Below, piece by piece: positions 1 to 27,049 of a stretch of 27,049 bases of DNA. Position numbers and translations under genes: made by a program. The notes below the pieces were generated by a model. The model searched no databases, was not told where the DNA came from, and was given only the letters and a program-made list of their open reading frames with translations. Numbering within the stretch: position 1 is the stretch's first letter; every line of letters begins with the position of its first letter. Source of the stretch: Boothiomyces macroporosus (lineage: Eukaryota > Chytridiomycota > Chytridiomycetes > Rhizophydiales > Terramycetaceae); assembly GCA_027604185.1 (NCBI GenBank), contig JADGKB010000152.1, forward strand, positions 1 through 27,049, in the 5' to 3' direction.

Positions 1-1494
1 TCGCTCTGAAGGGGTCTGCCCTTCCTTTGCCCAATTATGGGTGGGATTTAAAGGAGAGAAATTATACATGTCAGCAATTTTTTGTTGTACATTGTTAAAT
101 TTGTTCAACTTTGAAACCCCCCAATAGATATTGTAGGCCGTCAAGAAAGTCACGATAGTCAGACCAATAAAACTTCCGGGATAATCGTTTGAAAAATCCT
201 TTTGAATATTCACCACTATTTCTCCCAGCACTATAACAATAAGTAACCCATGTCTCTCGGTAAAGTGTTCAATATCTAGCTTTAAAATAAAGTTACTAAG
301 CCCAAATCGAATATTTGATGAATTGAGCAGAGACCCAACGGCAACACTGATAGGGGTCTTGAAAGTATCAAATATAATTCCCAACCCCCAGAATATTCTT
401 CTGTATTGATATCTTTGATAAGTGTCATCCGCAGGATAGAAAAACTCAACAAAATATGGCCACATTAGCAGTACTTCGGTAATCCCCTTTATAGTAATAT
501 GCTTTCGAAACGTTCCAAGGGAGATAAAAGAAAAAAAGAACATGTACAAGTTCATGAAAACTGCAGTTCCTACATATGCTCCGATCAGCCAGTTTGCAGT
601 ATTAATCTTTGGATCTAGACTAAAGGCATTCTGGATTGATATTGTCATGATGATAATACAGCAGGTATTGATGAATGAAAAGACTTTTTTCAATATATCT
701 TCCTGATACACCATGTTATTGAATGATGTGACCATTCTCCAATGTGAGAATATCGGATTCAGCAAGAGGAGGAGATTTAGAAATGAATCCCAGGTGTAGT
801 TTCCAGTAATGACATTACCCGCCTTTGAAATTGCACCTAAATTACTCTAAACATTACCAACATAAATGAGATCGACAAATAGCTCCACCCACGCAACATG
901 CATGTGCTCGTTTTCTCTGTGAAGCACTCCATTTTTGAAATATTGACGAATAACTGGAGGCACATAGAGCCCTTCCCTCTTTTTAATTTCTATAATTTCT
1001 AGCTTTTTAATAGCCCCAAAAGTAGTTGAAGTAACATGCATCGTCTCTTCAGAGGTATCAGTGATACTTAAAATTTCCTCTGAATCAAAATCAATCTCTG
1101 TGCGATCCAAAGTATCATCCCCAAAGGTTATTTCTGACCCAGCAGAGCTAGGGTTTTCAACCACTGGGGCACAGTTTTCCCGCAGAAAGTCTAATTCCTC
1201 CAGCTGTTTCGCTTCGCAGGTTTGTAACTTTGAAATACAATTTTCCAGTTGAATCTCATCCACTTGCCCTGTGGCTATCCGTCCCTGCAAAGTTTTAATT
1301 TTTGACTGTATGTTTGCAATACTTGCTTCGATTGCTTGAAAGTGCTCTGGAGACCCAAGCACCAAGTAATTGTCATCCAGCTGCTCGTCCTCTGTCTGCA
1401 CAATATGAATTACCTCCCCGTTCAGTTTAAATTTCGTTCGGAGAATACAGCTGGTGCATTTTTCTTTATCCATGGAGAAAAAGAATTGGGCCAA
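1..1494 (-). CDS. LtrA-like multi-pass membrane protein (3' part outside window)
   Basis: Exons 858-1494 and 1-836 are joined across a 21-nt GT-AG intron at 837-857; the frame then stays open to the window edge (at least 491 aa, C-terminus missing). The join restores the family start of the membrane domain, ELFVDLIYVGAISKAGNVI, and exon 2 carries the hallmark HFTERHGLLIVIVLGE. Several hydrophobic helices follow. The first ~190 residues are soluble, with a heptad-like stretch (about residues 55-105) and an acidic Ser/Thr-rich region. LtrA (low temperature requirement A) proteins are multi-pass membrane proteins found in bacteria and many fungi; their biochemical role is unresolved. The start at 1494 is the first ATG of the open frame; MDKEK, seven codons later, is an alternative. 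Family assignment is firm; function is not known. Confidence 0.85.
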
Positions 1495-1591
1495 ATGGAG
1501 AGAATTTTGAGTGGCAACACAAAGGGTAAAATTTGGAACAAACTCAAGGACCGAAAATATCGGGAAAATTGGCGGAATATTATTGGTACAT

Positions 1592-1597
1592 TTTATT
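1592..1597 (-). terminator. poly(A) signal AATAAA containing the CCDC124 stop codon
   Basis: On the minus strand AAATAAAAT spans the TAA stop (1593-1595) of the CCDC124-like gene. The hexamer is canonical; use as a cleavage signal is inferred. Confidence 0.5.
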
Positions 1598-2281
1598 TGT
1601 TTCTGAATCTTTCCAATTCGGCTTCGCGGGCGGTTGAAATGAACTCCTTGGCATCACTCTTCTTTGTATCGTATTCCAAGTGGGCTTGGTTCATTGGATT
1701 ATCTGGCGATTTCTGCCACTCTTTGAACAGCAGTTCCTTAAGCTGCGTCAATCTTAGGCTAGGGTTTTCCGCCTTTGTCAAACTGCTATTACCTTGAGTT
1801 CTGGCAATCTTCTTTCTTCAAAGGCTGCATATGCTGCCTTTTGCCTTCTCTCTGGGTGGCGGTCTAGCTTGACATTTGATCCATCCTTGACAGTTAAATC
1901 CAGCAGGTCCAAGGCACTGTCAATTCCAGATGCACCATAAGAGTCATCCTTTTCGACGGTTTCTCGAATTTTAAACGTCTTTGTTGGAATCAGTTTCTCC
2001 TTTGTAGTTGGCTTCTTTTTTGACAGCTCTGCCTCTTCCGCTTTAAGTATCGCTTCTCTTTCCGCCTTTTTGCGAGCTGCTTCAGCCTGGTGTTAATATT
2101 CATCTACTTTTTTTTGTTCTTCATCTTCCTTCTTTGCGTTTGACTTTGATCCCTTTTTCCAGTCCTCGTCCTCTTGGGCAGCTTTGGCAGCCTGAGCCTT
2201 TGCATTCTTGGCGTTCGCTGATGCCTCCTTTCTGGCATTTCCGGCCTCCTTTTTTGCGTTCACCACTTGTTTCTTTCCCAT
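1593..2281 (-). CDS. CCDC124/Lso2-type ribosome-associated protein
   Basis: Three exons, 2108-2281, 1793-2086 and 1593-1772, give 215 aa after removal of 21-nt (2087-2107) and 20-nt (1773-1792) introns. The N-terminus (MGKKQVVNAKKEAGNARKE, then a Lys/Ala/Glu-rich helix with W41) resembles yeast Lso2. The C-terminus (ERRLPELKAENPSLRLTQL, then a KEWQKSPDNPMNQ motif) matches human CCDC124. The second splice falls between ELK and AENPS and restores this signature. Family members bind the ribosomal A site/intersubunit region and act in hibernation and recycling of idle ribosomes. The start at 2281 is preferred over ATG 2293 because MGKK aligns with homologues. The first 21-nt intron holds an in-frame TAA. 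The stop codon lies within AATAAA. Confidence 0.9.
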
Positions 2282-2317
2282 TCTGATTTGCAAAAAAATC
2301 GCACACGCTCAATTTGG
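2282..2317. promoter_or_regulatory. 36-bp divergent intergenic region (bidirectional promoter)
   Basis: Only 36 bp separate the start codons of the CCDC124-like gene (-, ATG at 2281) and SIN1 (+, ATG at 2318). It is A/T-rich with an A7 run at about 2292-2298 and no clear TATA box. Transcription of both genes must start within this stretch or inside the neighbouring gene. Confidence 0.5.
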
Positions 2318-4331
2318 ATGGCATTCATCAGAGACCAAGATTTCCACGTAAAATACACTAATAAAAGATATTTGAGCTCAGATTAGCAGCTCACGAATTG
2401 AAGGACGAGCTCGCTCAAAGTATCATTCCAAAATATCCCTCAACAGACAAGTACTATTACCTATCTCTAATTTTACCACATATTCAGTCGGGGAAGAGTG
2501 GGTTCAGAAAGCACCTCTACAAAATCCCGGAATTAAAGGTATCGGATTATTAATACAGATCTTTAATACTGGCAACGTCGCAGAAGTAACACCGGTAGCC
2601 AAAAAAATCGCCAGACGGGCATCTCTATCAGAAGTATCGGAGAGCAAGGAAGATGATTTAGGTTCACAAGGATTCAAAAGACGACAGCGAGCCTTGTCTT
2701 CCAGGGAATACTTGGGTACTTCGCGTGACAATATCGCTTCAGCATCACTAATGAACGGACCAGAGTTTAAAACAAATTCATCGCAGATATTTTCCAAATC
2801 CGTTCAAGAAATCAATAGGCAAGTATTAAATAACCTAGTAAAACAGAGATAGTAAAGGTTGAAAAAGAAGAGGAACCGTTTCGTGAAAAGTACTCTGAAT
2901 CGGAGGATTCTGATCAGATTATACAGGTGGAAAATTCTCAAGCGACTTCAACTGCTACGAGAGATTCGGAAACCGCAAGTCATAAAGTAGATGAACTGCC
3001 TGTGATTGAGGAAAAGCCGTTTGTAGAATACAAAATAGAAAAACTGCCTATAAGTACAGTAAAGCCTATTAGTTCCAAATTATCGGCGATGATGGACAAG
3101 AAAGCGCAGAGGGACAACCCTCTTGCCAAGGCATATGCTGGATTTGTAATTACAGACTGACATTTAGAGTGGAAAGATGGATCCAAATGCAGTAAAACTA
3201 AAGCTATATTTACCTTTTGCTGAGCAATCGGACAGACCAATGTTTATTGCTGTTAAAGGCGATGCCCAAGTCAGCGAAGTTATAGGATACTGTCTACTAG
3301 AGTATTTAAATGAAAAAAGAGTCCCGGCGATTCCTGATGAAATGAGAAAAGTAGAGCAGTGGTCTTTGAGAATAGTGGATGATGGGATCGTGGATGATGA
3401 TTTTCCAGGTAACTATAACTTATAAAAGCTCTGGAGCCAAATAGAAAGATTCAGAAATACGCTTTTGATCAGTTTGCGCTATGTCCATTAGGATCACTAA
3501 AAGGTAGATTTCACTAACCCAGAAAAACAAAACAGTCTGACAGAAAGTGCATCGAATCACGGAAATCTGGATGATGCAGCAGGGGATGGCGGAGCTATAT
3601 CTCCTTCTACACCTTCAGTTTTCCTCAAAGTGCATTTATATTCTACTTTAGAAGTAAAGCAAACCACTATAATGCAAATGCCCACCGATATTACAATGCA
3701 AGAAGTATTCAACAGGATATGCGTTAAAAGAAAATACGACCCTAAAGATTATATTCTGAAAATGGCAGACACAAAGACAGACGTTCCTTTGGAAAAAACT
3801 TTGCAGCAAATGGATGCGATAGAGTTCTGTGTGTTGAAGCGATCTAGTGGAGGAGGTTATTGAAATCTAACTGTAGCGGGTGATATCTTTTTGCGACCAC
3901 CTGATGAAGAAGAAAGCAAAGAAGAGGAAAAACTGGTATTCACTTCGGAAGATTACCGAACCATGTACAAGGTAAGAGAAAACTTACAAAGCAATATCCT
4001 ATAGTAGTAAAGAATTTGATGAGCCGCCAAGAAAGGACATTTACCATTGATGGTGAATATATTAATCTCGATAGCACAGAAGCAAAAACATTCTTTGAAC
4101 GAGGAAAACATGCAGTACTTTCTCCATTAATCATAGGTATCCTACCACATTTCCGATATTATTTCCTGCTCGCATTCAAAAAAATCAAACTCATGCGCAT
4201 TCAAACTATCTCTCTCGCGTCCCACTGATGTAAAGATTTACGACTGTGAAGCGGCAACTCCTCAAATGGCTCATGAAATTGCAGGAAGGATCAACTATAT
4301 CGTAGAAATGTATACGAAAACCAAGAAATAA
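2318..4331 (+). CDS. SIN1/AVO1, TORC2 subunit (CRIM, RBD-like and PH domains)
   Basis: Ten exons (2318-2347, 2368-2538, 2559-2818, 2839-3145, 3168-3408, 3429-3503, 3523-3855, 3877-3971, 3992-4114, 4137-4331) sum to 1830 nt, a 609-aa protein. All nine introns are 19-22 nt. The CRIM domain (about residues 248-375) reads NPLAKAYAGF/SGKMDPNAVK across one splice and DDDFP/ALEPNRKI across the next. An RBD-like domain lies at about 394-473. The C-terminal PH domain (about 500-609) includes RTFTIDGEYI, SYHISDIISC and VKIYDCEA. SIN1 holds TORC2 together and presents AGC kinases through CRIM; the PH domain binds phosphoinositides. The third intron is GC-AG. AATAAA overlaps the stop. The start is the only ATG giving an open first exon before the first splice. 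Confidence 0.93.
2819..2838 (+). other. 20-nt GC-AG intron in SIN1
   Basis: The junction AG/GCAAGT is the classic GC-type donor context, and the acceptor is CCTAG. Removal joins AAT AG to T AAA (Asn-Ser-Lys) and keeps the frame to the next exon. A GT-AG alternative inside it (16 nt, from 2823) would run straight into TAA, so the GC donor is required. Confidence 0.75.
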
Positions 4332-4379: not shown

Positions 4380-6058
4380 ATGGACCAGCCAATAGAAGAG
4401 ACAACTATACCTTTTGTTGCACCAAATGATCATAAAATTGAAAGCGATATTCCCGAAAATATTGTTCAGGAGGATCCACGTTTGACTGACATGTCAAATG
4501 TTGTGACTGCAAATGTCAATATGGAAACAGAGATAGTCGAGGAAATTCAAAGGAATTCGACGACAACTGGCAGTATCAACGACTCTGAGCCCCCTGCTAC
4601 TACCCAAACCATCGACCTTTCGAATGCGGCTGTAAAACATTTCTCCTTACCAAATCTACAAAATGTAACTGTTACAGAAGAAGAAAGACCGGTTCTGATA
4701 GACTATATTAGACCAGACTTTGAGCAACCAGAGGTAACATTTCAATCGCAGTACATTCAACAACAAAGTTTTATTTCCAATCCACAATTACACTATGACG
4801 AGTTCAGTCTTAATTCAGAGCAAAGTCCTACACCAAATGCTAACACAACTGTGATGTCTGAAAATGTAGATTCTAGTATTGCTGACCAGATGAAGACAGT
4901 TAGTTTGGAACCACACCATCCAGTTTCAGCAGAGACCATTCGATACAGCTCTCTGGGCGGTAAAATCAATCTATTGGGATTGCTTAAAGAAGCTGAACAA
5001 ATTACTAGGGAAAAAGCACAAGAAATTGTTAATGCACGGGAGCAAGAAACACCGCATCCTACTGATGCTCAATCAGAGATGTACGAAATACAGACAGTGG
5101 TAACGCTGTCAGTAATAGGAAACCCAGCAACAAGTACCATGGGAAAAGAAGCTTCAAGGCTTCCAAAATGGAGCAAGAATTTAAAAATCAATACACCGCC
5201 TCCAGGTCCTAGTCTGATCCCAATAGTAAAAAACAGGACTGAATTAATTGCAAAGGCAATGGAGAAAAGCAAGATAAAGTCAAAATTGGACAGGTTCAAC
5301 AAAAAAGCAAAGCTGCTTCGACTCGTTACTAATCAAACAAGCACCAAGAACATGCTGCTAACAAACAAAGGATTGTTTTCTGAAGGTAACTGTTAAATAA
5401 CGCAGTCTTGATTAAAAATCCAAAGTCAGATGCGGAAAAGAACATGAAGGTTTGGTTCAGAGAGGAGCAGTCTCAATTTGCAGGATTTTTTCTACCTCAG
5501 CTAGAATCTAGACCGATATCTAGACAAGTACTAAGTAAATATCACAAGGACCATTCAGCAGACCGTCCGCCGGATAAAAACTTTTCATTCTATTCACAGC
5601 CATTGCCCAGGTTTCGAGGTCCGTCGTTTTGGCCAAAGGAGGAAACAGATGCAGGCAAAAGGCATAAACTGTTGAATGAAATAAAAATCCAGAGAGAAAT
5701 CGGAACAGAAGTAAACGAATCGGGGTTCCCAGTGCTAACTACCAGCCAAAACAGGAGGCTTAAAACTGCCGAAGTTTTGTCTGCTCTTGATCACATAGGC
5801 CCAAATAGACATCATATTCACCAACTTGAAAAGGAAAAGATAGTGCTTCCCGCATTAGAAGATATCCGATTGGAAGAAATTAAAGATACTGGCTTTCATA
5901 TGAATTCTATCCACTTGGAAAAGCGAAGGGTAAACTCCCGGGCAACAAGCAGAAACCCTTCAAGGTATAGTAATCGTATACAAACTGCTTCAGTTCGAGT
6001 CCCAACGAGTATGGCTGATTATGGTAATCGCTTGATCTCCAAAGAGCTCGAATTGTAG
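4380..6058 (+). CDS. uncharacterised 552-aa, largely disordered protein
   Basis: Two exons, 4380-5385 and 5406-6058, are joined across a 20-nt intron (5386-5405, GTAACT..CGCAG) and code for 552 aa. I recognise no domain. The first ~230 residues are acidic and rich in Ser/Thr/Asn/Gln, apparently disordered. Around 210-240 is a short helical segment (GGKINLLGLLKEAEQITREK). The middle is Lys/Arg-rich and contains a proline run (TPPPGPS). The C-terminal half is basic, with aromatic/proline patches (FSFYSQPLPRFRGPSFWPKE). There is no signal peptide or membrane segment. It lies 48 bp after SIN1 and 46 bp before another unknown gene on the same strand. The ATG at 4380 is the first in frame; translation as one protein is well supported by the clean splice, function is not. 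Confidence 0.8.
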
Positions 6059-6104: not shown

Positions 6105-6614
6105 ATGGGGCTCACACATCAGTTCTTTAACGATGAGCAGGTATATCTTGCCTAAACCAGATTACTGATGAATTCTTGGCGATTACGAAAACCGCACTGT
6201 CAAATATCAGAAAACATAAGGTAAGTTTCTGTTGATTCAGCCCAACACAGGAATGAAAGATATTTACCAGATTATTCACGATAATACAGATACATTTAGT
6301 ATTCCAAACTAATCGTAGGAAAGCTGATTGAATATTTAGCTAGAGATAATCAGAATTACGAGCCGCATAGTTTACACAATTTCTTGTCGTATGAGCAGGA
6401 ATCGGAGCCGATAATGCAACATGAAGATCCAGAAGAAATAAGATCTTACTCGCCGCCTTCTTCTTTTCCATCTGGTCGGAGGAATGGTGTTCAACTGGAT
6501 CCAAACACATTCCTGATGATTCCACAGAGTTACAACGAGCTTATAAGCCAAAATCTTCCAAGAATGAGCACTACTAGAGTTCAAAGACAGAGTAGAGTAT
6601 CAGAAAATAGATAA
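6105..6614 (+). CDS. uncharacterised 149-aa protein, four exons
   Basis: Exons 6105-6140, 6161-6220, 6241-6298 and 6319-6614 total 450 nt; the three introns are each 20 nt (6141-6160, 6221-6240, 6299-6318) with GT-AG ends. The first ~75 residues look helical (ITDEFLAITKTALSNIRK, then KDIYQIIHDNTDTFRKLIEY). The rest is polar and Ser/Pro/Arg-rich and probably disordered. No known family was recognised. The gene is convergent with TMEM231, whose stop codon lies 18 bp away. Support rests on three consecutive clean splices that keep one frame and on ATG 6105 as the first start. Confidence 0.75.
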
Positions 6615-6632: not shown

Positions 6633-7587
6633 TCAGTATTTAATTGGTGGTCCCAAGGATTTCGGCTTTGGCGCTATGCCTACAATGGTAGACACTACGT
6701 GTTGTCTGATTATACCATCATATAACCAATATAGAATGGCACCAGTGAATATAAAAGTGGTCAAGTATTGAATCCAGCCATTCCTCAGTACTTCCATCAA
6801 ACCAGGCCGGTACTGGACGGTCCAAGTTGGGATTTTCACTTTTATACTTATCGTCAGCGGTTCGTTATTCGCAGGTCCGTTCCACAACACGGTAGAGTCA
6901 TATTTTGTAAAAGCTACATTAGCAATATCTACTTGATCTTTGATTATAATTTGATATTAACGACTGCCAAGTTGGCTGTGATACTGAATCAACAATTGCG
7001 TAATCTAAACCATCAGTCATCCAGTCATGTTGAACTAGGCTCAAGTATCCATCAGCGTATACTGAACTTGCTGGTATTGGTGACGAATAATCAACATACA
7101 CCAAGGCTTGGGAGGTGAATCTGAATCTAGACTATAGTTAGGCGAATGTTACAGAGAGAGATATTTGAATTGGAAAGGCCAGCCTGATATGATTGATCGA
7201 TTCCGCTGGCAAAAGCGGCACAGAGAGGTTAAACCAAATCGTTTCTGGTTTACCATCTGAATTTTCATCAACATTCCATGCCTATATTAGTAAAGGCTAC
7301 TTTGAAACTAACAACTCTATTGCTGATTGCAAAATACTGTCCACCGCTTGTTCCTTCAAATAAAGTAAATGGATTATTCAAGGATAGTACTTTGGGTTGC
7401 TCTTGGAAGACGTTCTGCTTTATCCAAAACGCTATGATTAATATTGTTTACATCCAGAGTAAGATACTGCAAATGGAATCAGAAATAATCCGATTATGAA
7501 ACCTAAATATACTAATGTAGCTATTGAAAATAGTTGGGTCGAGTATGTCCGGTACGAACTTGGTGTAGCATAAATCTTTAACAACAT
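6633..7587 (-). CDS. TMEM231-like ciliary transition-zone membrane protein
   Basis: Five exons (7452-7587, 7301-7431, 7153-7281, 6933-7131, 6633-6913) give 291 aa after removing introns of 20, 19, 21 and 19 nt (7432-7451, 7282-7300, 7132-7152, 6914-6932). Features match TMEM231: a short cytosolic start (MLLKIYATPSSYRTYST), TM1 at about 20-42, a lumenal region with DENSDGKPETIWFNLSVPL, and near the end VQYRPGLMEVLRNGWIQYLT leading into TM2 at about 247-265. TMEM231 is a subunit of the MKS/B9 complex of the transition zone and helps gate the cilium. Its presence argues for a flagellated life stage. Human TMEM231 is of similar size. The 21-nt intron contains an in-frame TAA. Confidence is high because the conserved motifs are restored across every junction. 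Confidence 0.88.
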
Positions 7588-10706: not shown

Positions 10707-11594
10707 TTACATTTCGTCCTTTTGCATGGATAGAGGGGCAATTGACCCTATGCGAAGCAGCCAACCAATATAGTCATTAAAACTAACGTACGGCTGCATA
10801 TTATTCCCTTTGATCTGTTGAATCGCGTAATCTAAAGTAGCGCCTTCACTAAAGAACGCATTCCATTTGGACATGTCATTAAACATGGCTTCAAATTCTT
10901 TGCCATTCAAATGCCCTTTAAGTCCATGATCAAAGTACTAGGATTAGTGAGATTATACTTGAAAGTAATCTGTTGCTCGAAGGATTGCATTTTGCTGCTC
11001 TTGAGACAACTGCAGTCGCTGAAACCTATTGTCGGATTCCCACCAGGATAAGAATTCAGGATATGTGATTTCGCCATCTCTATCCTTGTCTAAACTGGCA
11101 ATAGCAAGTGAAGCTTCCTCGCTAGACATGAAATATCCCAGTGAATAGACTAGTCCCTTGAATTCGGCGGCAGATATGGTGTGCGAGTTGTTCTTGTCGT
11201 GCGAATCAAACATTTCCTTTGAAGAAGGAGAATTCTTGTGTCCTGTAATCTTTCTTCTAAGTATTATCGATGGTTTTGATTCAATGCTCTTTTCAAATGT
11301 TGGATCCATGTTAAAGTAAGTCAGGTTGTGAAGTGACGATATCCTGTTTGGAATGTACGGCTCTGCAATTCTATCCGCATGAACAGGAGTCACTTTTTGC
11401 AACACCAGAGCCTCTTCGTACTTGTGCAAGTGAGGACATTCCTTTGGTATAATGTCTTTTTCAAGCTCCTTTACTAGCAGGTCGATTGCCTGTTTAACTT
11501 GCGACGACTGCAACGGTGTGGGGATGCTGCATAGCGATTCCACTGCTAAATCGATCAGATGTGATGTTTTGATTTCTTTATTCTCTGATATCAT
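10707..11594 (-). CDS. EF-hand calcium-binding protein
   Basis: Exons 10959-11594 and 10707-10937 are joined across a 21-nt intron (10938-10958) with an in-frame TAA; the product is 288 aa. Two good EF-hand loops occur: DKNNSHTISAAE and DKDRDGEITYPE, the second fully canonical (D-x-D-x-D-G..E). A third, degenerate loop (DHGLKGHLNGKE) starts just after the splice, so the intron join restores a third hand. The N-terminal ~120 residues are helical and unrecognised. An in-frame ATG at 11681 would add 29 residues, but it overlaps a separate membrane-protein frame, so 11594 is preferred. The protein is likely a soluble Ca2+ sensor; partners are unknown. Confidence 0.8.
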
Positions 11595-15375: not shown

Positions 15376-15584
15376 AAATGGCTCCAAATCGACTCGACTC
15401 CCGGCTCTTTTTATTCCATGCATAGTTCTAGTTAGCAAATGCTTACCTGGCACAACCCAAACGCAAACAGCCCCATGTAAATAAACGCTGCTACGTAACA
15501 CGCTTTAGCGATAGCCATTGGATCCTTAGGCGGGTGCTTTCCAGTAACAAACTTTTCTACTTCGTTGTGATATAATCCCCCCAT
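15374..15584 (-). CDS. uncharacterised 63-aa single-pass membrane protein
   Basis: Exons 15447-15584 and 15374-15427 are joined across a 19-nt intron (15428-15446, donor GTAAGC, CTAAC before the acceptor TAG). The product begins MGGLYHNEVEKF, has one hydrophobic helix (about 28-45, YVAAFIYMGLFAFGL) and ends with a polar basic tail (NKKSRESSRF). Size and topology resemble small mitochondrial or ER membrane subunits, but no family was recognised. Support comes from the well-formed intron, the in-frame ATG and an AATAAA overlapping the stop. A competing frame at 15304-15501 crosses the same DNA without splicing. Confidence 0.55.
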
Positions 15585-15976
15585 AAAGAGCTATATTAAT
15601 AAAACGTACTAGAAATAGACTTCCGAATGCGCTTATTATTGTTAGCTGGAGTGCGCTCCCTTGTGAGACGAGAGTTATTTTGGCCAATGCAGACATTTAC
15701 AGATTTGAGGAAAATTCAAATCACGAGAATAAAAGAATTCGTTTGAATAGAATGCTAGATTCAAAGCGCGCTATTAGCAGCCGCACAACCAAACTTAATA
15801 CAAAGATGGCTGCTTTAACCCTATTGCGGAAGAAGAAAAGATCAGCAGCTGATATCAACTGGATCTTGAGTAGATATTGAAAAAAGTCAGTTGAAGCGGT
15901 GCTGATAGAGTTGTAATGCCATTGCAACTTGGAACACTCTACCAACGAACGCGATTTGCAGTGTAGTTGGACATAA
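15585..15976. other. 392-bp region without a confidently assigned gene
   Basis: It lies between the start of the 63-aa membrane protein and the stop of the mitochondrial carrier (both -). On the plus strand a frame at 15680-15880 has Lys/Arg-rich content (LLRKKKRSAADINW), but it lacks an early ATG. A second frame from ATG 15627 (MRLLLLAGVRSLVRRELFW, like a mitochondrial presequence) stops after 37 codons. A small plus-strand gene could exist here; I could not build a consistent model. Confidence 0.3.
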
Positions 15977-16870
15977 TTATATATTATTAATAACTAATTC
16001 ATAAACAGTAAATGTAGCAGCTGAAGACGGAATAGTGCGCATTAAGCTAGGCTTGTACCCTCTTGTAAATGCACCTATCCCGCCTTGCTTGTATAAATCT
16101 ACGATATTTTTCCACAATGAAGTAGATACATCCGATCTTTGCTGTATTCTTGCCTTTACAACATCAATTGGATAGCAAGCAGTCCAATAGCACACACCAG
16201 CAAAGGATCCAGACAACATGTAATCAAAAATACTTAAATCGCCGTTCTTTCCCAGCTGTCTTTTAGCTATTTCAAATCCGGTATAGTAAGCCGCGTTGGC
16301 AGGGAATTCTTTAATCAGCGTGATATCCAGCCCACGATATAATCCTTTTACACCAAATTCTCGCAGCAATTGCTGAACGACCTGTGTGGGGGTTAGATGA
16401 TTACCGACTGTTCTGGATGCCTGCAGCCTGATTTTCACCATTTCTATTGGACTCGCCACAAATGCAGACACCATTCCTGCACAACCACCAGATATATATA
16501 TTTCACTCAATTCCAATTCATTCTTTTCAAACAAACCTTTAAACCAAGCATTTGATGTGAATAAAACTGCGTTAATGATAAATACCTGAATTTACAAATG
16601 CTACTCCTAATATCGGTGCAGTCATTCCTTTATACAGACCACAGAATCCTTCGTGCTTTACCGTCTGAATTAAGCAATCTAAAGGCGAGTGAAATGCTGT
16701 CGATACCTGCATTCTTGTCTGAAATTAGCTTAAATCACCTTGACCGTATCAAACGGATGCCCAGCAGTTACTTGGGCCACGCCAGAGCATGCACCCGCTA
16801 TAAACTGCTCAAGCGAAGGTAAAGGTATATGTTTTTTCAATTCTTCCAAATCAAATGTCTGATATTTCAT
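15977..16870 (-). CDS. mitochondrial carrier (SLC25 family), basic amino acid/acylcarnitine-like
   Basis: Three exons (16739-16870, 16586-16718, 15977-16566) encode 284 aa; introns are 20 nt (16719-16738) and 19 nt (16567-16585). The three carrier repeats are all present: HPFDTVKTRMQ, SPIEMVKIRLQ and YPIDVVKARIQ, each followed by a GLYRG-type second motif (GLYKGMTAP, GLYRGLD, FTRGYKP). The first signature is split by the intron exactly between K and T, so splicing rebuilds it. The GLYKGMTAPILGVAFVNSVLF stretch resembles the ornithine/basic amino acid and carnitine/acylcarnitine carriers; the exact substrate is not assignable by eye. Length is usual for the family. Location: mitochondrial inner membrane. 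Confidence 0.92.
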
Positions 16871-17370: not shown

Positions 17371-18727
17371 ATGATTGCTTTACTAGCACTCGTTTCAACA
17401 ACTCATTCGAAATGTATCTCAATTCAGAATACAAAATATTGCCCTGAATACAAGAACTACATGATGTATGTTCCAGACAGTTCTTCAGAAACTACTTATT
17501 TCACAGACTTTGCAGGATTCGAAGCCTATATTCAGAAAAGAGTAGCTTTTGACATGGGAGCTATTTGCCCTACTTGGCAGACTGTCGGCAACGACCCTAT
17601 TCCCTTTTCAACTTCGTTTGCGTGCGGTTATGTTGCTGCAGTTTCTTCGCAATGCAACAACGGACAGCCGCCAGCTCCGCTACTTTGCAAAGACACTGTC
17701 GACACTACATTAAACTACTTGCAAAGCCAATATCTTGTCCCGAAAAAGTGCAACCTGGATGCTTACAAAAAATCATATGCCAATTACATTGATTTCCAAA
17801 ACCAAGCTGCTACCAACAACTGTAAGAGAGTTTTTGGACCAGAAGCTGATCTGAAAAACTATCCTTGTGGTGAGTAATGTTAATGTTAGGATTTTCCGGA
17901 CCAAATGCCCAGCAATTGAAAACCACTTTTTGTAATGCAAACGGAAACAAACCACTTTGCTGTGCTGCAAACCCATCATTGAGCGTTGGAACCCCTGCTG
18001 CAGACTTTGGTGGTGCAAACGCTCCTGGAGCAGCGGCACCAACTGCAACTAGCTCTGGCACCAATGGGACTGTTCCTCAAGTCACTACTTCGCTAACCCC
18101 TACTGAGCCTGTAATGAACAATGCTCCTCCAGTAGCTGTTGCTACTACCCAAAAACCATCCGCTTCTCCTTCTGCAGCAGATTCTAATTCTGGAGCCAGT
18201 TCTTCAACTGTGAATCCATTGATTATCGGTGCAAGTGCTTTTGGTGCTGCTCTAGTTGCTATCCTCATTTGCTCACTGATCTTTATGGGCCGTAAAAAGG
18301 CACCAGACAGTCCTATTCAACAGCCAAGCAATTTGCCAAAAGAAGCACCTCAAGAAGAAACTCTTGAGGCTATATACGAATACACGGCAAATCTTTTTGA
18401 TGAACTTACATTAAGTAAATCTATTGTTAACAATAGCTGTTGGAGACCATATTGTAATTAAGGAAAGATTTGATGACGGCTGGGGTAAATATCTATTTAA
18501 CTTTAGCTCTCGGGTATAACGTCAACACACAAAAAGATGGAACTTTCCCAATTGCTTGTGTTGCTCCAATTGGAAGCAATAACAGAATGACCATGATGAC
18601 TGAATCGCAGTATGGAGACCAATCTCAGTATGGCGATCAACCACGATATGCAGATCCAAGAGAGAGCATGTTCTCAAAGAGAACGTCTTCTATATACGCA
18701 GATAGTCAAGGTTATCAAATTCAATAA
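17371..18727 (+). CDS. secreted-ectodomain, single-pass TM, SH3 protein (paralogue A)
   Basis: Exons 17371-17869, 17890-18414, 18437-18484 and 18507-18727 encode 430 aa; introns are 20, 22 and 22 nt, all phase 1. A short signal peptide (MIALLALVSTTHSKC) precedes a ~190-residue Cys-rich ectodomain (CPEYKNY, ICPTWQ, FACGY, LLCKDTVDTTLNYLQ, YPCGFSGPNAQ, PLCC). A Ser/Thr/Pro/Ala linker, probably O-glycosylated, leads to a TM helix (about 277-300) and RKK stop-transfer. The SH3 domain (about 325-380) reads AIYEYTANLFDELTL, VGDHIVIKERFDDGW and DGTFPIACV, parts joined by the two 22-nt introns. The tail holds repeated SQYGDQ and a RESMFSKRTSSIYA motif shared with paralogue C. The layout suggests a cell-surface sensor or adhesion protein with a cytosolic adaptor domain, like fungal Sho1/Fus1-type proteins; that role is inferred. 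Confidence 0.88.
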
Positions 18728-18728
18728 A
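18723..18728 (+). terminator. poly(A) signal AATAAA containing the paralogue A stop codon
   Basis: TCAATAAATG spans the TAA stop (18725-18727). Confidence 0.5.
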
Positions 18729-18996: not shown

Positions 18997-20235
18997 ATGA
19001 TTTTCGCTCAATTAATATTGGCAGTGGTTGATTGCAAATGTATTTCACTCCAAAACTCGAAATCGTGTCCGCAGTACAAGGATTATGCGGTTAATATACC
19101 AATGAATTCAACTGAAAAAATTCACTTTACGAATCTGGCTGGATTTGATGCGTATGTATCCACTAAACAGATTTTCAACATGGAAAGTATTTGCCCTACT
19201 TGGCCGTCGATTGGGAATGATCCAATACCGTATCCAGTGTCATTTTCTTGTGCATATTACATTTCAGTCAGTCCAACATGCAATTCGCATCCACTTTCGC
19301 CTTCACTATGTCAGCAAACTATTGCTACTACGCTGATGTATCTCCAAACCCAGTATTTGATTCCAAAGCAATGTAATATGCAGGAATACAATCATCTGTT
19401 TGGGCAATTTCAGACGTTCCTTCAAGCAGCACCAACTACGAATTGCGTGGTTGCATTCTCAAATGAATTGAGTGAGCCTTGTGGTAAGTTTTGTTAAGTT
19501 AGGTTTACCAAATGCGCAGTTGAAAGATAGTTTTTGTAACCAGGTAAATAACCAGCTAGTGTGCTGTTCAAATGCAATAATGAAACCAAAACCGCTTTGG
19601 GGTGGGAATCCCAAGTCTAGCACACCAGTCCCTGTTCCAACAGGAAATCCTGCACCAGCAGCTTCCTCGAGTTTGTCGTTCAATACATTAAACAATATCC
19701 TGATTACATCTGGTAGCCCCAGTGTAACAGACATTGTAGGAGTAGCTAACTCGCCCACAGGAACACAAATAGTGGTTCAAACTGCAAATATTGTTAATGT
19801 GGCTGGTGTACCAACTGAGATCGTCTTGACTGCTGCTCCAGACATCACAGACGCCAAAAACCCGAATGCCCTACCCACTGCACATGTATCTGTGCCTTCT
19901 TCTTCCACAGTCCGTCCATTGATGATTGGGTTTGGAGTCGTTGGACTATGCTTTCTGGTGGTGCTATCTGTAATTTACGGAATAATCATTCATCAAAGAA
20001 CAGATCATCCTATAAAGCCAAACGTGCAAATCCCAAAAGAAATTCTCCAAGTCCTCTATGAATATATTCCTACCATGGATGATGAGCTCTGTCTTTGTAA
20101 ATATTTTCTAACACAGCAATTGGAGATTTTGTAGAGATCGAGGTGAAATATGACGATGGCTGGGCAAGGGGACTTAATAGGACTACAAAGAAAGTGGGGG
20201 TATTTCCTCTTGGGGCTTGCGATCGTCCATTCTAA
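18997..20235 (+). CDS. secreted-ectodomain, single-pass TM, SH3 protein (paralogue B, short tail)
   Basis: Exons 18997-19483, 19503-20096 and 20117-20235 encode 399 aa; introns are 19 nt (19484-19502) and 20 nt (20097-20116). The start at 18997 gives a signal peptide (MIFAQLILAVVDC). The ectodomain keeps the shared cysteine framework (CISLQNSKSCPQYKDY, ICPTWPS, FSCAYY, LCQQTIATTLMYLQ, EPCG, VCC). The linker is longer and rich in Thr/Val/Asn. The TM helix is at about 301-325. The SH3 (about 346-397) is divergent: LYEYIPTMDDELCL, IGDFVEIEVKYDDGWARG, VGVFPLGAC. The protein ends there (CDRPF) and lacks the Ser/Tyr/Arg tail of A and C. It also lacks the intron at DDGW present in both others. Confidence 0.86.
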
Positions 20236-20597: not shown

Positions 20598-21945
20598 ATG
20601 CTTTCACTACTCTTTATACTTGATGTGAATGCGCAGCAATGCTTCCCGTTGAAAGGAACAAAGGCATGCCCGGAACTAGATTGTAAACGATACTCTAACA
20701 ATAGCATATTCGCTGCTCATGCCTCACTTCAACTTGTATAGTGACGTTAAAACCTTTGATGCTTATGTATTGGGCAGCTCGGTGTTTAACATGAATTCAG
20801 CAGTGTGCCCAAAATGGCCAGTCGTTGGAACTCAGCCAGTTTCGTATGCAACTTCATTTGCTTGCGGATATGCAATGTTCAACAGTTATCAACCATGTAA
20901 CTCTGGATTACCACCTCCACCAGCATTGTGCCAAGATACTGTTAATACAGCGCTCGGATATTTGCAAAATACTGTATTTCCAGAAAAAGGATGTTCTCTC
21001 ACCCAATTCAACATGCCAAATTATTTCCAGTCCTATTCCACATTCCAAGCTGGAGCGCCTTCATCAGGCTGTATTAGAGCATTTGGACCTGATGCAAAAG
21101 CTCCTTGTGGGTTCACTGGCGCTAATGCCCAAACCTTGGCGACCGCTTACTGTAACGAGCAAAAGAATGCGCCGTTATGTTGCAATCCAAATTCACCGTT
21201 GACTATTCAAGCAAATGCAGCTACTGTAGCTTCATCAGCGCCTACTGCTGCACCAGCAGCTGGTTCAGATAACGCTGCTTCAGGAAATAGCACTGGTGTT
21301 ACTGGAGCAGGAGTAAACGGAGCTGCAGTAGTAACCCCGCAAGCTAGTGCAACTTCCTCTGCTCAAACTTCCACAGCTGCTAGCAGCAGTGTCCTTTCAC
21401 CTCTCGTTATTGGAGGTGCCGCTTTTGGTTTGGCTTTGATTGCAGTATTTGGTGCAATGTTATTTATTGCTTCTAGAAAAAAGAGCTCAACCGCTCCAAA
21501 ATCATCAAAGGCAGCAAGTGTCCCAGCAGCAGCACCAATTGGTGGTGGTGAGCCAGAAGAAGAGACTTTAGAATGTGTTTTCGAATATCAAGCCAATTTG
21601 TTTGATGAGCTAACCCTTGAAGTTGGTGATCATGTTGTAATTAGAGAAAAGTTTGACGATGGATGGGGTAAGTGATGGTTAATCATAGGTATTGGATTCA
21701 ACCTAAATTCTCAAAAAGAAGGGACATTCCCGTTGGCATGTGTTGGCCCAATTGGAAGTTATGACCCAAATAGAATGACCATGGCAACTGATTCACAATA
21801 CGCAACTGATTCCATGTATCAGCAATATCCTAATCAGCCGCGTTATGAAGAGGGTAGACCAGAAAGTATGTACTCCAAGAGAACTTCCTCAATCTACGGA
21901 GCAAATCAACATCAGCAAGGTTACCCAAATTATCAAAATTATTGA
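20598..21945 (+). CDS. secreted-ectodomain, single-pass TM, SH3 protein (paralogue C)
   Basis: Exons 20598-20682, 20705-21667 and 21689-21945 encode 434 aa; introns are 22 nt (20683-20704) and 21 nt (21668-21688). The start at 20598 gives a signal peptide (MLSLLFILDVNAQQC). The ectodomain follows the array's cysteine pattern (KACPELD, VCPKWP, FACGYA, LCQDTVNTALGYLQ, APCGFTGANAQ, PLCC). A long Ala/Ser/Thr linker leads to a TM helix at about 261-285 and RKK. The SH3 (about 316-372) reads VFEYQANLFDELTLEVGDH, VIREKFDDGWG and EGTFPLACV, the best-preserved SH3 of the three. The tail has Tyr/Gln repeats and RPESMYSKRTSSIYG. Introns at PCG and in the SH3 ELTL segment, present in A and B, are absent here. 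Confidence 0.9.
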
Positions 21946-21953: not shown

Positions 21954-22717
21954 TTATAAATCCGAAATATCATTCAATCCTAACACTTCCACGACTCCTT
22001 TTCCCTTTGATTCTTTGGAAACTAGTTCGTTGAGAATTTTGAAATTTCCTGGATCAATAATCCCCTCCATTTCATAGTCCTCTCCCATCTCTTCTTGCTC
22101 AATGGACACCAGCAGCTCTTTAATCTTTTCCTTGATCTTTTTAGCTTCCTTTGATCCCATGAACACTCTGACCTTCATTTGCACTGAATCAAAACAAAAC
22201 TACCTCTGGCAATCGGAATCACACCAGACTCTTGGATCATTCTAATCCCATCCAAAGCGGACTGTTTCACATTCTTGTTGACATTAATATTAAAGTGAAT
22301 ATCCTGCAAGATTTTCTCAATCATTGTGGCAGTATACGGCCGCTTCGTAGTCGGATTAATAGTCTTTTCCGCAATAGTATTCGCAACATCCTTTTGTAAA
22401 CTTTCCAACTGTTGATTCCGTTCCTTTTCCCCGACTTGCAACTCTCCCTTTTCCAATATCTGAATTATGATTTCTTTCAAATCCGTAGTCCCAAAGCATT
22501 TATTGAGCTCGTCTTTCGAAGCTACTTGGCCCTTACTGACGTTTAAATATACCTGCTCAATTTGTAGAACGTTGTCTAAATCCTTTTCCAGTTTGTTTCG
22601 GTATTCGAGGACTTTGTTTTTGTAGCAAGCAATTTCAAAGCGCTTGCCGCCTTTCTTTAGTTTTACTACCGAAACATTTGTTAGTTTAATTGACGCTAGC
22701 GGTTGTGAAATTCTCAT
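21954..22717 (-). CDS. SBDS/Sdo1 ribosome maturation factor
   Basis: Exons 22204-22717 and 21954-22183 are joined across a 20-nt intron (22184-22203) to give 247 aa, the usual family length. The N-terminal domain carries IKLTNVSVVKLKKGGKRFEI, ACYKNKV, EKDLDNVLQ, VYLNVSKGQVASKDEL and KEIIIQILEKGELQV. The middle has NPTTKRPYTATMIEKILQDI, and the C-terminal domain GIIDPGNFKILNELVSKESK. SBDS works with the GTPase EFL1 to release eIF6 (Tif6) from late 60S subunits. The start at 22717 (MRISQPLASIKLT) aligns with homologues; an in-frame ATG at 22741 would add eight residues. Confidence 0.95.
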
Positions 22718-22798: not shown

Positions 22799-24261
22799 TC
22801 TTTTTCGCTTTTCGGTTTTGATGTCCGGTTTCCTGGAGATGTTTAAAGAGAGCGTTTCTGCTCTTGAATACTTCGCTACAGACACCGCATTCCGGTTTAA
22901 GCTTCACCGCTTGCTTATCATGGAGCTTCTTTTCTCTATTGCTCAGCTGTGGCTTTATATCTTGCTCTTTGCACAAGTGGCATACTGTCTCCTTTTCCTT
23001 GTTTTGAGCTTGGCAGTCATCACAGATTAGCAATGGAACCTGGATTAATTCTAGTTACTCTGCACCCAGGACACCGTTTGTTTCCTCTATACTTGTCCCA
23101 TGGTTTATCGCATGATAGGCAATTTGATGTAATTTCACTCCTCTTTGCTCCATGAGCGAATCGCTTATCAAAAGTATAGTTCTTGCCAATCCAGTGACTA
23201 GATTAATAAAAAGTACCCTCCGTCTTCATTAAAGTGCTCTAGGTATCTATGAATTCCACCTTGCATTTGGTATATATTGTCCAACCCTTTTTCGCGCAAC
23301 AGTGCAGAGGCACGCTCACATCTAATACCGCCCGTGCAAAACATCATGATTTGTTTTCCTTCTAGATTTGGCTTCATTTTATCTACCCACTCTGGAAACT
23401 CTGTTGATACCCTCATTTTAGGATCAATATATTCTGCTCCGCCTGGAGGAGGATTGAATCTACCTGCCATTAATAGTAGTTACCTATAACTGCTTCATAG
23501 GTATTCCTAACGTCAATAATAACTGTGTTTGGCTCCTCCATCTTTTTATGATATTCAATTGCATTCAAATGCACTCCTCCATTCTTTAGCGAAGGCTGTT
23601 TTTCAGCCAATCCATAGTTTACAATTTCAGTCACTGGAAATACTTTAAGAGCAGGGAACGCCTGCCCTTTAGGTAAATCATCGGTCAGTTTAAAATCAGT
23701 CTGAGCAAAGATTTTAGGTTTCCACTCTCTCATTGCTTGACAGAATAGCCTGACTTGGTTAGAAGGACCCGTCATTGTGCCGTTAAAGCCTTCCCGAGCG
23801 ATACGCAATCTTCCAGTCATTTCATACTGTTTTCCAGTTTCTTCAGCCCATTTTAGGGCTTCTTGATGCTCTTCAGGAGTCCATTCCGGTTCAACATAAG
23901 CATAAAATAATAACAGTGTGATACCAGATTGATATGCAAGTTTAGTAACTGATAGCGGAGCAAGTGATTGGAGAGGATGGCCATCAAACGTAGTTGTAAA
24001 CAAGTGAAGGTTTTCTCTTGTTGGTTCAATTGGTGGTGGCACCGCTTTACCATTTTCAATGCGCTTATCGTCAGACAATGGAGTCTCTTTAGATTCTGTA
24101 GGTTCAGTTTCCTTCTTTTCTTTTTTTAGTTGCTTCAATTCCTTTTCCAGTTGCTTAATCTTCAATTCATATTTCTTTACTTTTTCCGTCTTGTTTTTCT
24201 GAATGTATTTTTCAAGCTTTTCCTTCAATTTCTTCAATTCCTTTTTAAGCTCCTTTTTCAT
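22794..24261 (-). CDS. TrhO/TSTD2-type rhodanese with C-terminal C2H2 zinc finger
   Basis: Exons 23484-24261, 23217-23463, 23059-23197 and 22794-23039 encode 469 aa; introns are 20, 19 and 19 nt. The first ~70 residues are a Lys/Glu coiled coil. An acylphosphatase-like domain (LLLFYAYVEP, RIAREGFNGTMTG) precedes the rhodanese domain (TVIIDVRNTYEAVIGRFNPP) with the loop CTGGIRCERAS, catalytic Cys302 and Cys308. The family's Cys-rich tail follows: WIGKNYTFDKRF, CLSCDKPWDKYRGNKRC, PGC, then CDDC and CHLC. The last ~35 residues add a C2H2 finger (CGVCSEVFKSRNALFKHLQ, then ETGH) and a basic end. Bacterial TrhO makes 5-hydroxyuridine at tRNA position 34; the eukaryotic role is unsettled. The start at 24261 avoids an unlikely upstream stretch. 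The stop lies in AATAAA. Confidence 0.9.
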
Positions 24262-24369: not shown

Positions 24370-26231
24370 ATGGCAGATCAATCCAAGCAAGACAGACAGG
24401 ACGCCAATTCGGCAGATTATGTAGCGGTGGAAACTCTGGAATGCGATATCGACCAAATCATGGATGATTATGAGTTCAATGGAGATGAATCCGAACCTTC
24501 TACAGAAATTGAAGACCAGGAGGAGCTGATTAATGCTGAGGAGATTGCAGAGGTAGAGGATGATTACTTTATGCGCAATCAAGAAAGAAAGAGCTTTCAC
24601 AGCCATAATACCAGCTCCAATAGCTTGGTCAAAAATTCCACTTTGCCCAGTTTAATTAGCGATACCAAATCATACGCTTCCAGCCAGTCTTTCAAATTAC
24701 AGTATGCACATAGCCACATTGACTCTCATAAAGACCTAATGAACCTTGTGGATAGACTTGATAGTATGAAAGCACCGGTGGAAGAAATCCCATCAGAATA
24801 CGATGGATTATGTAAAGTGATGCAGCTGATTGCTCCTTATATTGAGCTGGCTGAGTATCATCATCTGCGTTTGTCATTCAACAACAAGTTACCATTAACT
24901 CATCATCAACTATTGGAAATTTACAGAAAGTCACCCAAACCAACTCTTTTACAATCAATGATTACGTTGGATCCAACAGTTGCAAACTACGAATACATTT
25001 TATCTCAAAAGCACTACTATCAGTTGTTGCTACTGACTCCTCAAATGCCTCTGGATTACAAAACATCATTACTGATAACTATGGTTAAAGGGCCCCGAAA
25101 GCTGGCTGATTATGACGCTTGTTATTTGATGTTGTTGGCGAATGATTTGGAAAGCAATAGAATGACATTTAATGACAGAATCAATATTTCCCTGATCACA
25201 GTTTCAGAGAGAATAGATAAACGAAAAAGTATTGTCTCTATTAGCGATCGCTTTGAATTATTGCGTCATAGAGATGCTGCCAGACTTGAATCAGTTCCTG
25301 AAGTAAAAGGAGAAAACAAAACTATTGGCGATTTGATTAGGTCAGGTACTGGGGTTTTTACTAGAACAGGGACAGGCATGTTTAATAGAAACCTTAGACC
25401 AAAGTCCGTCGTCGATACTGCTAGTAGTTTGGTAGATTCTAGACCTAGCACACCAGTAGAAAACCGCTCGAATTCTAAAATAGATGATCTTGAAACCAAT
25501 GGAGACACCATTATGGACCAAATAATCAACACTTATGAAAAACCTAGGTCTCGGGTGGATAAAATGAATGTTCAGATCCTTTGTGAAATATTCAAGCTGG
25601 TTGCTAGTCGTAATGACGTCAACCTAATCAAACGACTTTTGAAAGACGATCGTATCACAGCCAACATCTTAAATGATGTGTTCAAGCACTGCTGCGTGGA
25701 AGGAAGACATCTAGCCGTTAGGTAATTCCATTTTTACAATAGGCTGTTGAGAACAGATATTAGAATAGATCCAGGAATGGAAAATAATTATTGCATTAAA
25801 ATTGCAGTTGAAAAGGGATATTTGAGGATTGTGTCACTTCTTATTCAGGATCCACGTGTAGATGCAACAGTAGATAGCAATTGGTGTATACGCAAAGCAG
25901 CTGAACTCAATTACGCTGAAATTGTGGAATGCCTCCTTCTCAACTGTAATCCATTAGAAGATGGTCATACCCAATCTGCACTAAAGTACTCATTACTAAC
26001 AATAGATGGTGCATTCAAAATGACAACGATACAATCTTTGAAATAATGAAAGATAGAATACCTATTGGCGTGGATGTCGTAACTTTAACTGTTCAGTTCC
26101 ATAGCCCGTATGTTCTTCGTCGTTTGATTGGGCAAGTATCCCTGACCAGAAAAGAATACAAGAACTTGAAAGTGCGTGCAAGCACAGATATCATTCCAAT
26201 TTTAAAAAAGATGGTCAAGAGGTGGTTTTAA
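24370..26231 (+). CDS. ankyrin-repeat protein with acidic N-terminus
   Basis: Exons 24370-25721, 25743-25985 and 26006-26231 encode 606 aa; introns are 21 nt (25722-25742, in-frame TAA) and 20 nt (25986-26005). Residues 1-75 are very acidic. The middle (about 130-290) is predicted helical with no family I recognise. A Ser/Thr/Arg-rich stretch (about 285-390) follows. From about residue 400 there are degenerate ankyrin repeats: LVASRNDVNLIKRLLKDDRI, CIKIAVEKGYLRIVSLLIQD, CIRKAAELNYAEIVECLLL. Such repeats with DPRVD-type loops are common in chytrid genomes as expanded families of unknown role. The start at 24370 (MADQSK) is the first ATG after an A-rich leader; it lies 108 bp from the divergent rhodanese start. 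Confidence 0.82.
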
Positions 26232-26246
26232 TAGAATAATTGTGTC

Positions 26247-26252
26247 AATAAA
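26247..26252 (+). terminator. poly(A) signal AATAAA after the ankyrin gene
   Basis: The hexamer lies 16 nt beyond the stop (26229-26231), within the 70-bp convergent gap to the PAS gene's stop. Confidence 0.4.
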
Positions 26253-26301
26253 TACCTAGAGGTTTAGATTCTCGATCAAATTTTAAATGTAATTTATATT
26301 C

Positions 26302-27049
26302 TTATTCTTCTGGAGTACAAGTTCCATACCACCCTACAAGCTCTTGAATATCATTCAGAATTGGTGTTCCTTTCGTTACAAACGATGCAAAAGTACCATT
26401 ACCACATTTCAGCCTTCTCTTTACAACAAAAGTCTTTTTAGTACGATTTCCTTCCGCAAACGCGTTAAAGCTAGCATTATAATCTTCAGGATGTACTACT
26501 TCTTTATCAAAGACGTTCAGCATTGCTCCGGGAGGTGCGCCAACATACTTTGTGAATCTAGAGTTGCAGTATAGAACATTTCCTTGTGGGTCAACCTTCC
26601 AGATCATCTGAGGTAAGCTTTCTGGTAAGAGAACCATTTCTTGAGCCGTTTGCTCTGCATCGTTGATATCCTTACATAGTCCATAGAAAGATATAACCTT
26701 TCCGTTTGTATCGATGATTGGAGACCCACTGCAGTGAAACCATCTAAATTTACCATCTTTTCCTTTCAATCTGAATTTAAAGTCCAGAACGGATTTCTTT
26801 GCTTTCGTCCTTTCAAAAGCTTCTTGGACCATCGAATAATCCTTTTCATAGCACAACTAGATCTTAATTGAAAGTTACCTTTTCAGAGTACATCATTGTT
26901 TTTGTAACTTTGAAATCTATACCAGTGTGGTTAAGGAAGTTGATGTTGCTATAATAAATTTCTCCATTTGGATCTGATTTCCAGATGAATACAGGAAGCT
27001 TTTCTTGCAGGGTATTTAGTTCTGCTTCCAGTAAAACGGCATCGTCTAT
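26302..27049 (-). CDS. PAS-domain repeat protein (5' part outside window)
   Basis: Exons 26879-27049 (open to the window edge) and 26302-26856 are joined across a 22-nt phase-0 intron (26857-26878) and give the last 241 residues. Two PAS/PAC units are visible. The first reads LPVFIWKSDPNGEIYYSN and ends with the PAC motif GKFRWFHCSGSPIID, VISFYGLCKDI. The second reads LPQMIWKVDPQGNVLYCNSR, FTKYVGAP, VVHPEDYNASFNAF, GTFASFVTKGTPI, LVGWYGTCTPEE-stop. The intron falls in the first unit just before YEKDYSMVQEAF and restores it. No histidine kinase, receiver or cyclase domain follows, so any effector domain must be N-terminal. It is probably a cytosolic sensor; the ligand is unknown. Confidence 0.85.

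Follow-up and report, generated by a model that had tools for sequence, protein, structure and literature searches.

Introns of only 19-23 nucleotides (nt) are abundant in the chytrid fungus Boothiomyces macroporosus (family Terramycetaceae, order Rhizophydiales), which belongs to a free-living, saprotrophic genus, and they appear to coexist with a rare second class beginning at about 39 nt. Taking the evidence as a whole, the best explanation, which we consider probable, is that both are U2-type introns removed by the major spliceosome, in two classes or geometries. The stretch under study is contig C152 (bases 1-27,049, hereafter the window, i.e. the whole of this 27,049-nt stretch), and searches covered the assembly of 15.2 Mb in 216 contigs. 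The window was confirmed to hold tiny introns, 43 of them spread over 17 genes (13 of 19 nt, 17 of 20, 7 of 21, and 6 of 22; Table 1). A preliminary description of the same DNA had resolved 42 introns in 17 genes, with 12 of 19 nt; its span (837 to 26878), gene number, and counts for 20-22 nt stand, and one 19-nt intron is added. Its remark that none was longer holds for the introns resolved in the window, where some longer introns drawn by an unrestricted model were judged errors, and fails genome-wide, where a class of 39-55 nt exists.

The tiny class was recovered by a self-trained gene model that reads two strands, codon usage, and GT..AG introns under a flat length prior. The sample comprised the window, 20 ten-kb stretches (contigs C1-C20), and a 3-kb U6 locus. 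With GT and AG as the only splice-site information, first-round predictions peaked at 19-22 nt (15, 37, 29, and 7 of 254 introns). With lengths flat over 10-300 nt and GT..AG as the sole requirement, 117 of 281 predicted introns fell at 19-22 nt, while the decoy signal pairs TG..GA (14 of 283) and GA..TG (16 of 273) gave no peak there. The final model, in which donor, branch, and acceptor signals were learnt and length was flat over 14-200 nt, placed 276 of 368 introns at 19-23 nt in 227,049 bases (64, 119, 66, 24, and 3 at successive lengths). Two of the remaining 92 measure 16-17 nt and the rest are thinly scattered over 24-200 nt; most of these were judged modelling errors because the decoys yield a similar tail. 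The GT-AG ends are built into the model, and the branch motif was first examined on introns called without it.

A search of the whole assembly with the pattern GTAAGTN{0,30}CTAACN{1,6}AG, which uses no gene model, gave 112 matches. The 100 listed, which include a few overlaps or duplicates, peak at 19-20 nt: 85 measure 18-23 nt, one 26 nt, and 14 measure 36-46 nt (12 of these were retrieved, and one that was missed is a duplicate). The 227-kb sample peaks at 20 nt, and the preliminary description's claim of a tight tiny distribution in a fungus is borne out. Reversed-pattern controls fell below the forward count in one search (41 vs 369) and in a search fixing GTAA and GRAYRG (4 vs 23). They exceeded it for the pattern above (295 vs 112), for GTAAGTN{8,38}YTAAYN{2,3}YAG (221 vs 64), and for a further pattern (270 vs 23, with 3 of the 23 matches retrieved), perhaps because coding sequence avoids motifs containing TAA or TAG; these searches were judged instead by length profile and frame validation. 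Extrapolating 276 introns per 227 kb to 15.2 Mb suggests some 18,000 tiny introns. By rough inference, the 19-23-nt class would make up ~99% of introns and the second class, very roughly, ~1%, the latter a donor-usage-corrected estimate rather than a count.

Removal of the window introns restores reading frames and conserved motifs, as the preliminary description had noted. Pfam matches span the junctions in the spliced proteins, including three SBDS domains, three Mito_carr stretches, LtrA, UPF0176_N/Rhodanese, SH3_1, and the domains whose extents appear in Table 1. The three-intron gene at 6105-6614 gave no Pfam match, and its introns rest on frame and motif. The spliced SBDS protein is identical to NCBI HK103_001812 from the same contig; since that entry already omits the 20-nt intron, public annotation splices at least one tiny intron. 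In addition, four intron junctions in the gene for the splicing factor Isy1 match the annotated protein of a sister species. That the segments are assembly errors, translationally bypassed frameshifts, or artefacts of gene prediction is conceivable insofar as splicing is predicted here from sequence, and we regard it as very improbable given the consistent GTA...YTRAY...YAG anatomy, the peakless decoys, Pfam continuity, agreement with annotated proteins, and intact pairing sites in the small nuclear RNAs (snRNAs).

The annotated Terramyces SBDS protein lacks 12 residues exactly where the window has its 20-nt SBDS intron, as if a predictor had settled on a false intron of greater length. Terramyces may share tiny introns and have them misannotated.

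Within the tiny class, the donor is GT followed by A in 93% and A in 61%, with T at +6 in 53% and no preference for G at +5 (21%; 276 introns). The branch motif is YTRAY, and the branch A lies at +14 (106 introns), +15 (119), or +16 (25), i.e. in 250 of 276, and 5 nt (122) or 6 nt (108) from the intron end in 230 of 276. The resulting layout is a GTA donor, a linker of 4-5 nt after base six, YTRAY, 1-2 nt, and YAG. U12-type (minor) introns have an RTATCCTT donor and a TTCCTTRAY branch motif, and neither logo resembles these; the tiny introns look like ordinary U2-type GT-AG introns whose two spacings are short and independent. The distance that precedes the branch, counted from the 5' splice site, and the one that follows it, up to the 3' splice site, vary independently (2x2 Fisher p 0.21). 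Two short rulers thus add up to the total length, contrary to the earlier suggestion of a spliceosome that measures one fixed length.

Of the major spliceosome, the U1, U2, and U6 snRNAs and the proteins Slu7, Prp18, Cwc25, and Isy1 were found. U6 carries ACAGAGA, and U2 occurs above the Rfam cut-off at two loci (L022 and L023) with GUAGUA intact; U1, with the 5' end AUACUUACCUG and its pairing site intact, scores 68.8 bits, just below the cut-off of 69.5. The two U2 copies are identical in their branch-pairing regions and differ shortly downstream. Loss of Slu7 and Prp18 had been expected from a branch-AG distance of only 5-6 nt, and was rejected, as both are present (Pfam positions 1-253 of 253 and 3-142 of 143). 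A loss of the Cwc25 glycine plug like that in the ciliate Stentor was likewise rejected: the plug MGGGDLNLKKSWHP is present at L029, with the start codon set by analogy with the known plug. Isy1 is different. In other eukaryotes, its usually conserved N-terminus touches the intron within the active site. In an alignment of 15 of 120 listed homologues, both B. macroporosus and Boothiomyces sp. JEL0838 lack this segment (consensus MARNEEKAQSMLYRFREAQ) or have other sequence in its place, and Globomyces sp. JEL0801 carries an altered form (MANNQKEKQKSVVHRFRE); MARN is kept in 12 of the other 13 aligned rows, and Batrachochytrium salamandrivorans starts later.

Longer introns were tested because of the 36-46-nt pattern matches. 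Sixty-five candidates of 24-55 nt (the 64 matches of GTAAGTN{8,38}YTAAYN{2,3}YAG, 62 of them distinct, plus three others) were judged by coding frame on both flanks, with the same procedure at every length. Automatic validation accepted the single 24-nt candidate, none of 13 at 25-40 nt, and 35 of 51 at 41-55 nt (p 5e-6). With a boundary picked after inspecting the rejected candidates, the counts are 0 of 10 at 26-38 nt vs 35 of 53 at 39-55 nt (Fisher p 1e-4). Pfam matches run continuously across the junction in all ten second-class proteins tested among the 35 validated (DnaJ, tRNA-synt_1b, Ras, DNA_photolyase, adh_short, POB3_N, Ldh_1_N, Cse1, GTP_EFTU, and peroxidase), and a validated 46-nt intron in the Isy1 gene agrees with the annotated protein of the sister species. 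By this frame evidence, the second class begins at ~39 nt and reaches at least 55 nt, and lengths of 26-38 nt are sparse. At L089 and L090 on contig C148, one translation resembles a mitochondrial NADH dehydrogenase; the contig may be mitochondrial, in which case pattern matches there would be chance.

Just upstream of YTAAY, validated second-class introns carry a GAAYRG-like sequence. We scanned every U2, U1, and U6 hexamer against the 10 nt that precede the branch motif, requiring full antiparallel Watson-Crick or G-U pairing and using 200 shuffles as control. The top hexamer was CUGUUC, U2 positions 41-46, one nucleotide from the branch-pairing GUAGUA (U2 34-39): 18 of 35 introns pair fully (shuffle mean 0.5, maximum 3) and 27 of 35 at five or more of the six positions (shuffle 6.4, maximum 12). 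Deviations are mostly A to G facing U and C to U facing G, as pairing predicts. The complementarity is one of sequence, and pairing within the spliceosome is proposed. A pattern fixing GTAA, GRAYRG, and the branch found 23 matches, 20 of them at 40-54 nt and the others at 33, 37, and 62 nt; 15 of the 23 were retrieved or covered by other retrieved loci, and those of 37 and 40 nt could not be validated. G at +5 occurs in 17 of these 23 and, where tiny introns have a GTAA donor, in 41 of 159 (p 1e-5). In the yeast spliceosome, the portion of U2 beside its branch-pairing site can also pair with the intron upstream of the branch (PMC8357632). The same U2 region is involved in both cases; the extra pairing in yeast is reported to vary by intron, whereas in Boothiomyces it would be a recurrent motif of one class, with no room for it in the tiny class.

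Both the element and the donors bear on a rival account, in which a single mechanism, selection for compactness down to a physical minimum, produced the tiny introns, the 39-55-nt introns are unshrunk leftovers, and the gap between them is accidental. High gene density (126 predicted genes with ~182 kb coding in 227 kb), the rarity of the second class, and the fuzzy edges of the gap are what it would lead one to expect. Yet leftovers should also fill the range of 26-38 nt, where none of 10 candidates was validated, and they would need neither a U2-complementary element nor stronger donors with G at +5; we therefore hold this account to be unlikely.

Another possibility is a single ruler for every intron: in the longer ones, a hairpin placed after the 5' splice site and before the branch would restore an effective distance of 14 nt. 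The 35 validated interiors do fold below their shuffles (sum -126.2 vs -95.1 +/- 9.4 kcal/mol, p 0.003), the 20 non-validated candidates show no extra stability (Z -0.2), and a few stems stand out, among them those of L080 and L060. The effective distance after folding is nevertheless like that of shuffles (median 24 vs 23), several validated introns have no fold at all, and p fell below 0.05 in only one of the first 16 introns, so that a hairpin ruler seems to us decidedly doubtful. Across the second-class interiors (L034 to L093), the extra fold stability is modest, and donor and branch are not brought closer.

We hypothesize instead that a single major spliceosome adopts either of two geometries, each of which excludes the other. 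The tiny class, whose length range is set by its two rulers (one ending at branch A, the other running from there to AG), would be recognized by proximity, and the branch helix could not extend because the 5' splice site sits immediately upstream. Longer introns would need stronger U1/U6 pairing through GTAAG donors together with an extended U2-branch helix built by the dedicated U2-complementary element, and intermediate lengths would match neither geometry, leaving ~26-38 nt forbidden. The Isy1 change would be permissive and convergent with Stentor; more speculatively, the diverged N-terminus may help to hold a 14-nt lariat loop. We give this specific proposal somewhat less than an even chance. 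It had stood at even before two rejected candidates at the edges of the gap were judged likely to be real.

Several observations weigh against the best explanation as a whole. The two edge candidates, L047 (25 nt) and L052 (39 nt), look real by eye and failed validation solely through one short or low-scoring flanking exon; we take L047 to read into a ribosomal-protein-S10-like C-terminus and L052 into an alpha/beta-hydrolase-like motif. The gap of 26-38 nt is not perfectly clean, as the 32-nt candidate L087 is ambiguous, and the 33-nt match L095 is in frame, although a standard 21-nt alternative has the same acceptor. Eight of the 35 second-class introns pair with U2 at fewer than five of six positions; the U1 hexamer UUGUUC also scores (18 vs shuffle 1.8, maximum 6), as does UCUGUU, a U2 hexamer that overlaps the top one; and the spacer between GAAYRG and YTAAY is 0-4 nt, mostly 1-2, where a continuous U2 helix would require 3. 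Donor strength was judged on the GTAA/GRAYRG matches, which are validated only in part, and the 35 second-class introns were selected with GTAAGT and YTAAY fixed. Moreover, the case for excision is built on reading frames, motifs, and homology, and the Isy1 divergence is read from genomic DNA in a gene whose first exon is uncertain.

The window introns were listed with the model limited to 17-24 nt, which gave 49 candidates, of which 43 were kept. Five (276-296, 4734-4751, 5970-5993, 6024-6044, and 26079-26096) were dropped as multiples of three without frame evidence, though some may be true introns, and a sixth, 21816-21837, was dropped because its removal destroys a C-terminal stretch common to a paralogue.

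Table 1. Tiny introns of the window, with strand and the evidence for each
Intron	Positions	Strand	Evidence
21 nt, LtrA-like gene	837..857	-	LtrA Pfam match, spliced protein
20 nt, CCDC124, AAAG 3' end	1773..1792	-	Ccdc124 domain 7-82/82, spliced protein
21 nt, CCDC124	2087..2107	-	gene model
20 nt, SIN1	2348..2367	+	gene model
20 nt, SIN1	2539..2558	+	gene model
20 nt, SIN1, weak branch motif	2838..2857	+	frame restoration only
22 nt, SIN1, adjoins CRIM domain	3146..3167	+	gene model, Pfam
20 nt, SIN1, within CRIM domain	3409..3428	+	CRIM 2-138/139
19 nt, SIN1, CRIM domain end	3504..3522	+	gene model, Pfam
21 nt, SIN1	3856..3876	+	gene model
20 nt, SIN1	3972..3991	+	SIN1_PH 2-105/105
22 nt, SIN1, within SIN1_PH domain	4115..4136	+	gene model, Pfam
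20 nt, unnamed gene 4380-6058	5386..5405	+	gene model
20 nt, unnamed gene 6105-6614	6141..6160	+	frame and motif only
20 nt, unnamed gene 6105-6614	6221..6240	+	frame and motif only
20 nt, unnamed gene 6105-6614	6299..6318	+	frame and motif only
19 nt, TMEM231	6914..6932	-	TM231 3-300/301
21 nt, TMEM231	7132..7152	-	gene model, Pfam
19 nt, TMEM231	7282..7300	-	gene model, Pfam
20 nt, TMEM231	7432..7451	-	gene model, Pfam
21 nt, EF-hand-like gene 10707-11594 (named by reading the sequence)	10938..10958	-	gene model
19 nt, CHIP/STUB1	14282..14300	-	U-box 1-73/73
19 nt, CHIP, within U-box	14461..14479	-	gene model, Pfam
19 nt, CHIP	14749..14767	-	gene model
19 nt, CHIP	14835..14853	-	gene model
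19 nt, close to stop, gene 15374-15696	15428..15446	-	frame and motif only; least certain
19 nt, gene 15374-15696	15591..15609	-	gene model
19 nt, SLC25 carrier	16567..16585	-	three Mito_carr stretches
20 nt, SLC25, GTG donor, in PFDTVKTRMQ motif	16719..16738	-	gene model, Pfam
20 nt, SH3 membrane-protein gene 1, GTG donor	17870..17889	+	gene model
22 nt, SH3 gene 1, within SH3 domain	18415..18436	+	SH3_1
22 nt, SH3 gene 1, within SH3 domain	18485..18506	+	gene model, Pfam
19 nt, SH3 paralogue 2	19484..19502	+	gene model
20 nt, SH3 paralogue 2	20097..20116	+	gene model
22 nt, SH3 paralogue 3	20683..20704	+	gene model
21 nt, SH3 paralogue 3	21668..21688	+	gene model
20 nt, SBDS	22184..22203	-	spliced protein identical to NCBI HK103_001812
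19 nt, TrhO/UPF0176	23040..23058	-	Rhodanese_C 2-66/66
19 nt, TrhO	23198..23216	-	gene model
20 nt, TrhO, within Rhodanese domain	23464..23483	-	gene model, Pfam
21 nt, gene 24370-26231	25722..25742	+	gene model
20 nt, gene 24370-26231	25986..26005	+	gene model
22 nt, PAS-domain gene, within PAS fold	26857..26878	-	PAS 2-113/113

Among the window genes, LtrA (1-1473) and the UPF0176/TrhO rhodanese (22794-24261) both carry tiny introns. These families are described mainly from bacteria; if the genes were acquired, their introns were gained afterwards. At positions 17371-21949, a secreted or membrane protein is encoded by three paralogues in tandem, with SH3 matched in the first and recognized by eye in the others, presumably a Sho1-like arrangement. 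Elsewhere in the assembly, the same segments matched twice within a contig (C2:269581/312177, C3:193597/215214, C90:30164/32235, and C175:2832/12979), and one gene region gave the same model on contigs C49 and C100 (L029 and L030); these reflect recent duplication or redundancy of the assembly.

An intron of 19 nt poses the question of how a megadalton spliceosome can handle it. In the literature found, the hosts of tiny introns comprise a relic nucleus, giant ciliates, and parasites of reduced kind; a culturable chytrid such as this one would permit tests. The gap between classes and the U2-complementary element predict a minimum distance from 5' splice site to branch, a role for an extended U2 helix, and a role for Isy1. 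More generally, a gene predictor that imposes a minimum intron length would misannotate such genomes.

Introns this short are already known in other eukaryotes; a fungus whose introns centre on ~20 nt would be new. Literature titles and the openings of abstracts, a partial coverage that makes the absence weak, named no such fungus, and 'tiny introns' with 'chytrid' returned nothing from a literature that mostly leaves out subscription papers and preprints. Cryptococcus neoformans, a fungus rich in short introns, is described as averaging 56 nt, and its few introns below 40 nt as being spliced poorly (PMC11913375), whereas the bulk in B. macroporosus lies at 19-23 nt. As in other ultrashort-intron lineages, that bulk falls below 25 nt with a narrow spread. 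Mikrocytid introns of 16-17 nt are very uniform in a nuclear genome, like the tiny class; these parasites are reported to have a reduced spliceosome, 224 predicted introns (PMC10245619), and essentially a single length class, vs ~18,000 extrapolated tiny introns and a second class in B. macroporosus.

The comparisons already drawn in the preliminary description, with the Bigelowiella nucleomorph and Stentor, hold up. Chlorarachniophyte nucleomorph introns measure 18-21 nt (PMC10245619), a nearly equal, narrow range with many introns. The nucleomorph is the severely reduced relic nucleus of an endosymbiont, whereas B. macroporosus has a 15.2-Mb chytrid genome and a second intron class. The heterotrich Stentor has introns of 15-16 nt in which the branch A is the 10th or 11th nucleotide and the branch consensus is weak; Slu7 and Prp18 are reported as undetected, the GGG plug of Cwc25 as missing, and the Isy1 N-terminus as non-conserved, which was proposed to avoid a steric clash (PMC9505925). 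Unlike Stentor, B. macroporosus places its branch A at 14-16, has a clear YTRAY, and retains Slu7, Prp18, and the Cwc25 plug. What the two have in common is a fixed branch A ~5 nt from the intron end and a diverged Isy1 N-terminus, and the Isy1 parallel between a ciliate and a chytrid is suggestive.

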